Below are positions 5,773 through 27,809 of a stretch of DNA of 64,000 bases, piece after piece; the first letter of the stretch is position 1; each line of letters starts with the position of its first letter. Made by a program: the position numbers and the translations under genes. This DNA is from Vulcanimicrobiota bacterium (GTDB taxonomy: Bacteria > Vulcanimicrobiota > Vulcanimicrobiia > Vulcanimicrobiales > Vulcanimicrobiaceae): contig PLWS01000002.1 in assembly GCA_003151115.1 (NCBI GenBank), positions 558,001 through 622,000 of the forward strand. Direction: 5' to 3'. The notes under the pieces were generated by a model. The model had not been told where the DNA came from. It saw nothing but the letters and a program-made list of their open reading frames with translations, and made no database searches.

Positions 5773-6255
5773 TTGAATAGATATATTCGGATCGCGCTGC
5801 TCGTAACGTCGTTGGCGGCATGTAACCACAGCCCGACCCGACAGTATTACATGCGCTCCGGTCCGGTCGACGCGTTCATTTTCAATGTGGCTCGTGCGGG
5901 GACAGCGATATCGGGAACATATACTTGGGAAACAATAATCGGACCCGGCAGATTAGCGATAAACCATTTCTCGGTCGAGCCAGTGTCTGGCAATGAGATA
6001 GCCCTTCGATCGAAAGACCGTCGTCGATCTTCGCGCTGGCTAGTCTCGTGGACAGACGGATCATTTAACCTCTTTGATCAAGCGCATCATAGGCGCCTGA
6101 CCTTCACGAATGTCCCCAAGCGGGAGGTTGAGGGCTTTGAGGCACAGCTACGCGCAATTGCCGGCATTTCCGGCCCCATAATCAAAATTCCAGTATCGGG
6201 GCTCCCAGAGCAACAAATGCAGCCATGCACGGATGGTTTGGAGCTGCCGTGCTGA
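5773..6255 (+). CDS. Small lipoprotein of unknown function
   Basis: 160 residues from TTG 5773, with TTTAGGGA upstream. The N-terminus NRYIRIALLVTSLAAC is a typical lipoprotein signal ending in the lipobox SLAAC, so the mature protein should be lipid-anchored from Cys17. The mature part is beta-rich (FNVARAGTAISGTYTWET) and ends with a Cys-containing tail (MQPCTDGLELPC) that could form a disulphide. No domain is recognised. It is isolated in accessory DNA. Confidence 0.55.
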   Translation: MNRYIRIALLVTSLAACNHSPTRQYYMRSGPVDAFIFNVARAGTAISGTYTWETIIGPGRLAINHFSVEPVSGNEIALRSKDRRRSSRWLVSWTDGSFNLFDQAHHRRLTFTNVPKREVEGFEAQLRAIAGISGPIIKIPVSGLPEQQMQPCTDGLELPC

Positions 6256-27459: not shown

Positions 27460-27503
27460 AAAGGGACGGCCGATTCGATAAGAGTCGACCGCCCCTTTCT
27501 TTT
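27460..27503 (+). terminator. Rho-independent terminator after the membrane-protein pair
   Basis: AAAGGG, CGG and CGA pair with TCG, CCG and CCCTTT (mismatches at two positions), followed by CTTTT. The T-run ends directly at the first base of tRNA-Leu, so the hairpin also acts as a boundary to the tRNA's 5' end. Confidence 0.65.
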
Positions 27504-27809
27504 GGGATGGTGGTGGAATCGGTAGACACAGCAGACTTTTCTTGGAGCCGCGGATAGGGAAACCGGCCGCGGGATGCGCTCAAATTCGGTGAACGCCTCC
27601 GCCGCACGTGCGGCGACGCCAACGCCGAGCCAAGCGAATTGCGTGCAATTCGAAGGTGTAGAGACTGGACGGGCGCGGCCTACGTGGCGAACGCCATATG
27701 GTCAAGGCACAGTCCGGACCACAAACGTCGAAGGGCGGTAGCGAAAGTTATAGTGGTGCGAAAATTTGCTGGCCGAAAGGCCGTCCGGGTTCGAGTCCCG
27801 GCCATCCCA
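27504..27809 (+). tRNA. tRNA-Leu(UAA) interrupted by a group I intron
   Basis: Exon 1 (27504-27538) begins GGGATGG and holds the D-arm GGTAGACA; exon 2 (27761-27809) holds the class II variable arm GGCCGAAAGGCC, the T-arm CCGGG-TTCGAGT-CCCGG and acceptor CCATCCC with discriminator A. Joined, the anticodon arm is GCAGA-CTTAAAA-TTTGC, giving anticodon TAA and one G:T pair. The intron falls between U34 and A35. The spliced length is 84 nt. CCA is not encoded. All arms fit, so the identity is secure. Confidence 0.95.
27539..27760 (+). ncRNA. Group I self-splicing intron in tRNA-Leu (222 nt, IC3-like)
   Basis: The four conserved core elements occur in order: P (CTCAAATTCGGTGAACGCC, about 27580), Q (AACGCCGAGCCAAGCG, about 27621), R (GGTGTAGAGACTGGACGGG, about 27655) and S (AAGGCACAGTCC, 27704-27715). 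R GACT and S AGTC form P7. A CCGCGG pair gives P2. The last base is G (omega-G, 27760). The exon 1 end is U, as required for the U:G pair of P1. No homing endonuclease frame is inside. These elements and the U-AA insertion site match the cyanobacterial/plastid tRNA-Leu introns. Confidence 0.92.

Follow-up and report, generated by a model that had tools for sequence, protein, structure and literature searches.

The 64,000-nucleotide stretch of DNA analyzed here (the window) carries at positions 27504–27809 of its forward strand a tRNA-Leu(UAA) gene, the anticodon of which is interrupted between U34 and A35 by a 222-nt insert. The 5′ exon (27504–27538, +) extends from the acceptor strand to U34 and ends in C32-U33-U34, and the 3′ exon (27761–27809, +) runs from A35 to the discriminator and begins with A35-A36-A37-A38. 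The insert between them (27539–27760, +) starts with UUCUUGGAGCC and ends with a G. Once it is omitted, a cloverleaf with a UAA anticodon is obtained, and the exons match those of uninterrupted orthologues. As noted in a preliminary description of this DNA, the insert is free of an endonuclease; 222 nt leave no space for one. The same description had placed the host in a non-cyanobacterial diderm phylum, which holds true: the organism belongs to the Vulcanimicrobiota/Eremiobacterota, and a TonB-dependent receptor encoded in the window fits a diderm host. Directly upstream, positions 27466–27503 contain a GGGACGG..CCGCCCC stem and then a T-rich run that extends up to the first tRNA base. This element may be the terminator of the upstream gene adjoining the tRNA start; it was not called by a consensus terminator scan.

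Uninterrupted orthologues from the same genus define the exact boundaries of the insert. In genome G001, the first exon block (contig C16, 6071–6105) runs straight into the second (6106–6154) with no insert between them. Exon 1 is identical to that of the window in 35 of 35 bases, exon 2 differs by one mismatch, and the junction reads GACTT/AAAAT both in G001 and in a second genome of the genus, G004. When the 306-nt gene was used as query against relatives, full-length copies were recovered from many genomes (mostly 71–89% identity), and other relatives returned the two exons only, directly adjoining. The best full-length homologues reach E values down to 1e-112, so the intron-bearing gene is not a chance arrangement.

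Comparative analysis confirms the insert as a group I intron with a predicted P1–P9 core, all elements of which lie on the forward strand. P1 (27536–27547) pairs the exon residues C32-U33-U34 (27536–27538) with an internal guide GAG (27545–27547) and is invariant in the two sets of 29 and 31 sequences described below, including the wobble pair U34·G27545 at the 5′ splice site. P2 (27548–27572) is a stem with a GAAA tetraloop, four of its six outer pairs being changed on both sides in the 29-intron alignment. The strands of P3, GCGCUC (27576–27581) and GGGCGC (27671–27676), form a pseudoknot with P7; five of the six pairs are changed on both sides, with 100% pairing across host groups and covariation among the 31 introns. 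P4 (27586–27591, element P, with 27623–27628, element Q) is 99.5–100% paired. P5 (27595–27596 with 27618–27619) carries a variable hairpin and shows compensatory U-A/G-C/C-G changes, and P6 (27629–27631 with 27655–27657), which also carries a variable hairpin, is found in both alignments. P7, the guanosine-binding helix of the predicted fold, joins GACUG (27663–27667, element R) to CAGUC (27710–27714, element S); three of five pairs are changed on both sides, pairing is 100%, and the 3′ strand is again backed by covariation among the 31 introns. In P8 (27677–27680 with 27700–27703) three of four pairs are changed on both sides, and P9 (27718–27722 with 27753–27757), present in both alignments, is built around a GAAA hairpin (27738–27751). 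The conserved elements P, Q, R, and S of the preliminary description are thus borne out by the paired strands of P4 and P7, and its terminal G by G27760, which is invariant in the intron alignments.

The explicit P1–P9 model, including the P3/P7 pseudoknot, was scored on two alignments against 500 shuffles each, and on the first also against slid pairings. The first alignment comprises 29 introns of the phylum, and the second comprises 31 introns from the phylum, proteobacteria, a planctomycete, phages, and a plasmid. In the first, 99.1% of cells are paired and 12 pairs are changed on both sides; the covariation score of 0.208 compares with 0.088 for shuffled alignments (reached by 0/500) and ≤0.065 for slid pairings. 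In the second, 26 pairs are changed on both sides, with a score of 0.420 versus 0.160 shuffled (0/500). Across both, 95–99% of cells are paired, and compensatory changes are present in P2, P3, P5, P7, P8, and P9. We relied on covariation because the folding energy of one sequence proved uninformative: the fold of the intron alone, a check put forward in the preliminary description, gave a z value of −0.27, i.e. no excess stability. Its central claim of a 222-nt group I intron between U34 and A35 nevertheless stands, carried by the empty orthologues, the homologues (1e-112), and the covariation (0/500). In both alignments P4–P5 and P6 are short, leaving a compact core without a P5abc extension; P5(a–d) is absent from subgroup IC3 (PMC11835236). 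Judged on these traits (compact core and tRNA host), the intron has the features of subgroup IC3.

Standard tools overlook this gene, as had been predicted. On the window, both ARAGORN and the Rfam tRNA model RF00005 call only two other tRNAs and miss the split tRNA-Leu(UAA). That group I introns conceal tRNA genes has been pointed out by the authors of tRNAscan-SE (PMC8450103). In these intron-bearing genomes, an essential tRNA gene is dropped by standard annotation. The Rfam group I model RF00028, suggested earlier as a check, gave a divided result: the window copy is unmatched even at E ≤ 10, and the orthologous introns of three relatives (G010, G015, and G018) are matched with 30–35 bits (E values of 2e-7 to 9e-6), below the gathering score of 50 bits, which is a detection aid and not a defining trait. 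With 74 bits, the same model detects another group I intron in this genome, located in the 23S rRNA gene (locus L031, about 1030–1305; G000:C2:1025–1296) between the flanks ..CCTAAGGT and AGCGAAATTCC, a site that we take to be at about E. coli position 1931. Some relatives show two RF00028 matches close together.

The genome (2.55 Mb in 8 contigs, 98.5% complete) encodes further Leu tRNAs with the anticodons CAA, GAG, UAG, and CAG, every one uninterrupted. An uninterrupted tRNA-Leu(UAA) elsewhere, named in the preliminary description as the finding to look for, was not found in it, and neither was any other second Leu(UAA) gene. UUA accounts for 40 of 10,725 codons in 25 window open reading frames, most of them not verified as genes. 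Since UUA codons are used and the interrupted gene is the sole one found for Leu(UAA), the intron must be removed, provided that the missing 1.5% of the genome hides no UAA gene. The intron would almost certainly cut itself out of the tRNA precursor. The transcript would fold into P1–P9 with guanosine bound in P7, be cut after U34 at the U·G pair of P1, and have U34 joined to A35 at the terminal G27760, giving a mature UUA-reading tRNA. One could read the failure of RF00028 on the window copy as the sign of a dead insertion, in which case the gene would be a pseudogene and UUA would be decoded by another tRNA. We rejected this reading, which is extremely improbable, after a search of the 98.5% complete genome for a second Leu(UAA) gene gave none; moreover, the exons are intact, and the intron core is conserved and covaries over many genomes.

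The preliminary description had also proposed a comparison with relatives, and full-length intron homologues as well as exact empty sites were found among 149 genomes of the phylum. The intron pattern occurs in 51 of these 149 genomes, including one likely chance match (G139), which leaves about 50. G139 aside, all intron-bearing genomes belong to two families, f1 and f3, of one class, and families outside that class possess uninterrupted Leu(UAA) genes wherever a gene was found. In a further family, f2 (G037–G040, four genomes, 82–98% complete), neither a filled nor an uninterrupted tRNA-Leu(UAA) gene was detected by pattern or similarity. The extracted set comprises 47 complete introns of 206–358 nt and 34 empty genes. 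Interspersed with the intron-bearing genomes are others with a precise empty site, within the same genus and across the family. Filled and empty loci have flanking genes in common, again in this genus and across the family, which identifies the empty sites as orthologous. The intron of G035 (L308) contains an inserted palindromic repeat of the CCCTGAGCG..GTCGAAGGG type, for which no match was found in the window.

The 47 introns of the phylum all group in a single clade (support 100/100), and they still do so when the long rows are left out of the alignment. On an RpoB tree of 64 genomes, the distribution requires 19 changes of presence or, with a single gain, 20 losses (18 in f1); some nodes are weakly supported, in this tree as well as in the intron tree (197 columns). 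In f1, the main family, the distances between introns correlate with those between RpoB sequences (r = 0.52, 0/2000 permutations). Together, the single clade and this correlation favor a history within the phylum in which the intron was acquired once, passed on mainly vertically, and lost precisely many times. The acquisition would have taken place in the class ancestor or in one of its families, precise losses would have followed many times since, and the endonuclease-free intron would now be a passenger inherited with its tRNA gene. In the genome of the window, the rpoB match (G000:C6:877173–880414) is in pieces and more than one reading frame, with 877800–878570 and 878567–879670 overlapping by four bases, which may reflect either an assembly frameshift or a gene that is split.

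Counting alone is also compatible with repeated gains, as the roughly 19 changes on the host tree may be arrivals, either through homing or because the entire tRNA gene was transferred together with its intron. There are signs of such traffic. The intron of G023 is misplaced in the intron tree, where it groups with introns of another genus, hinting at some transfer. In f3, intron-bearing genomes possess a tRNA-Leu(UAA) of the GGGATGATGG type with different neighbors and lack the GGGCGCG-type gene, whereas intronless genomes carry a GGGCGCG-type tRNA-Leu(UAA) at another locus, so the whole gene has been replaced, in one direction or the other. Rudi et al. 2002, cited in PMC3984707, reportedly found horizontal transfer and locus recombination for a tRNA-Leu(UAA) intron. 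Even so, repeated gain in place of loss is unlikely for this phylum. The window copy and the short copies are too small for an endonuclease, intron and RpoB distances correlate in f1, and the empty exons are equal or nearly equal to filled ones at orthologous loci and nested in intron-bearing clades. A placement of the f3 introns within those of f1 was not significant (AU p 0.29) and was dropped as a claim. One genome, G109, has two empty Leu(UAA) genes (L406), one with exons identical to those of G019 (L402) from a different genus, which is a case of either contamination or transfer.

Outside the phylum, the same site was surveyed in one genome per species with a tRNA-Leu 5′ exon followed by an intron start as the pattern. 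Among the matches listed, introns at this site occur in at least 32 betaproteobacterial, at least 23 gammaproteobacterial, and at least 5 further pseudomonadotal records, as well as in at least 9 Vulcanimicrobiota, at least 2 unclassified, at least 1 planctomycete, and at least 1 Desulfobulbus record. At least one Chloroflexota record, among the same matches, closely resembles a Nitrosomonadales locus and for that reason may be a binning error. Pattern matches in Bacteroidota and others were set aside, as on reading they turned out to be uninterrupted tRNA-Leu genes. At 17 of 58 loci checked, an orphan tRNA-Leu 5′ half lies about 190–225 bp upstream of the intact intron-bearing tRNA (L058 from 2406, L066 from 2768, L044, and 14 other proteobacterial loci); it may be what an integrative element left behind, or else a leader hairpin.

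Mobile elements carry the intron as well. It is present at this site in dozens of IMG/VR contigs. One of these (L210) encodes, near the intron-bearing gene, proteins with matches to phage tail and baseplate families. Viral contigs scanned for the core motif gave no matches, and one phage row of the intron set (L191) ends early. The best match in a phage collection is a 700-nt intron in a tRNA-Leu of the 595-kb phage LR756511.1 (locus L195). It encodes an HNH endonuclease (phrog_10822, E 1e-46; PF01844) and is the nearest outside relative of the phylum introns in the tree (100/93; 97/84 without the long rows), a position that gives no direction of transfer. A plasmid collection yields 1264 matching records, and in 1254 the match spans ≥80% of the gene, with 60–80% identity; over a thousand of the plasmids are enterobacterial. 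Two loci on conjugative plasmids were read (L194, 5001–5281; L471, 2501–2780); in both, an intron-bearing tRNA-Leu(UAA) that is missing from the annotation lies near aac(3)-IId.

Across phyla, the patchy distribution and the phage carriers favor lateral spread. The question of ancestral versus lateral origin raised in the preliminary description is thereby partly answered, with one acquisition and many losses favored inside the phylum and lateral spread favored between phyla. Its cyanobacterial and plastid frame for this site and intron type was too narrow, as such introns are common in beta- and gammaproteobacteria, phages, and plasmids, and an interrupted tRNA-Leu-TAA had already been reported in Beggiatoaceae (PMC4853749). 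Our preferred reading, to which we assign a probability of roughly 90%, is that this intron belongs among the small group I ribozymes of bacterial tRNA-Leu(UAA) genes, was acquired once, has been inherited vertically as a passenger, was lost many times, and had a source that was most likely lateral, plausibly by way of phage. It is conceivable, at somewhat less than even odds, that the intron travels on phages and plasmids and that its endonuclease-free copies on the chromosomes of separate phyla were seeded by phage copies with an endonuclease. If so, the textbook "ancient" tRNA intron would be a collection of introns that arrived laterally.

A single intron that predates the divergence of cyanobacteria and Vulcanimicrobiota and descended strictly vertically would account for the same site and the same architecture, and placing a provisional Anabaena intron sequence, which is a lead only, next to the phylum introns was not rejected (AU p 0.17). 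Such descent is nonetheless highly improbable, given that the gene is uninterrupted in those genomes of the phylum that were read from outside the one class, and that among the introns found those of phages and a planctomycete lie closest. In the debate on ancient introns, the tRNA-Leu(UAA) intron serves as a classic case. Vertical and lateral inheritance can be tested against each other now that another phylum offers dozens of orthologous sites, filled and empty, along with a phage relative bearing an HNH endonuclease.

Reviews assign bacterial tRNA introns mainly to cyanobacteria and to a few alpha- and betaproteobacteria (PMC4033280). According to a 2014 review (PMC3984707), every phage intron seen by then lay in a protein-coding gene, although phages have many tRNA genes; the phage tRNA introns found here do not fit this statement. 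We found no earlier report of a group I intron in Eremiobacterota in the open-access literature. The intron is an ordinary ribozyme of known kind in a phylum for which no such report was found; what is notable is that orthologous sites occur both filled and empty and that a phage relative bears an endonuclease. Interrupted tRNA-Leu-TAA genes with putative group I introns were described in Beggiatoa BOGUAY and Thiomargarita of the Beggiatoaceae (PMC4853749). By description they likewise lie outside cyanobacteria, but they belong to Gammaproteobacteria, and their structure and type were not determined in that work. The tRNA-Leu(UAA) introns of Achromobacter (L051) and Stutzerimonas (L057) resemble the window intron in site, helices, P1, and terminal G, whereas proteobacterial introns such as these are 57–64% identical over aligned core columns, have other P3/P7 base pairs, and form a separate clade. 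The intron of phage LR756511.1 occupies the same site in a phage tRNA-Leu, and over core columns its identity is 70% with the window copy and as high as 79% with others, but it differs from the window copy by its HNH endonuclease reading frame. Cyanobacterial tRNA-Leu(UAA) introns are like the window intron in host tRNA, small size, lack of an endonuclease, order of core elements, and presumably the U34/A35 insertion site, whereas the window intron resides in a different phylum, where precise losses are frequent.
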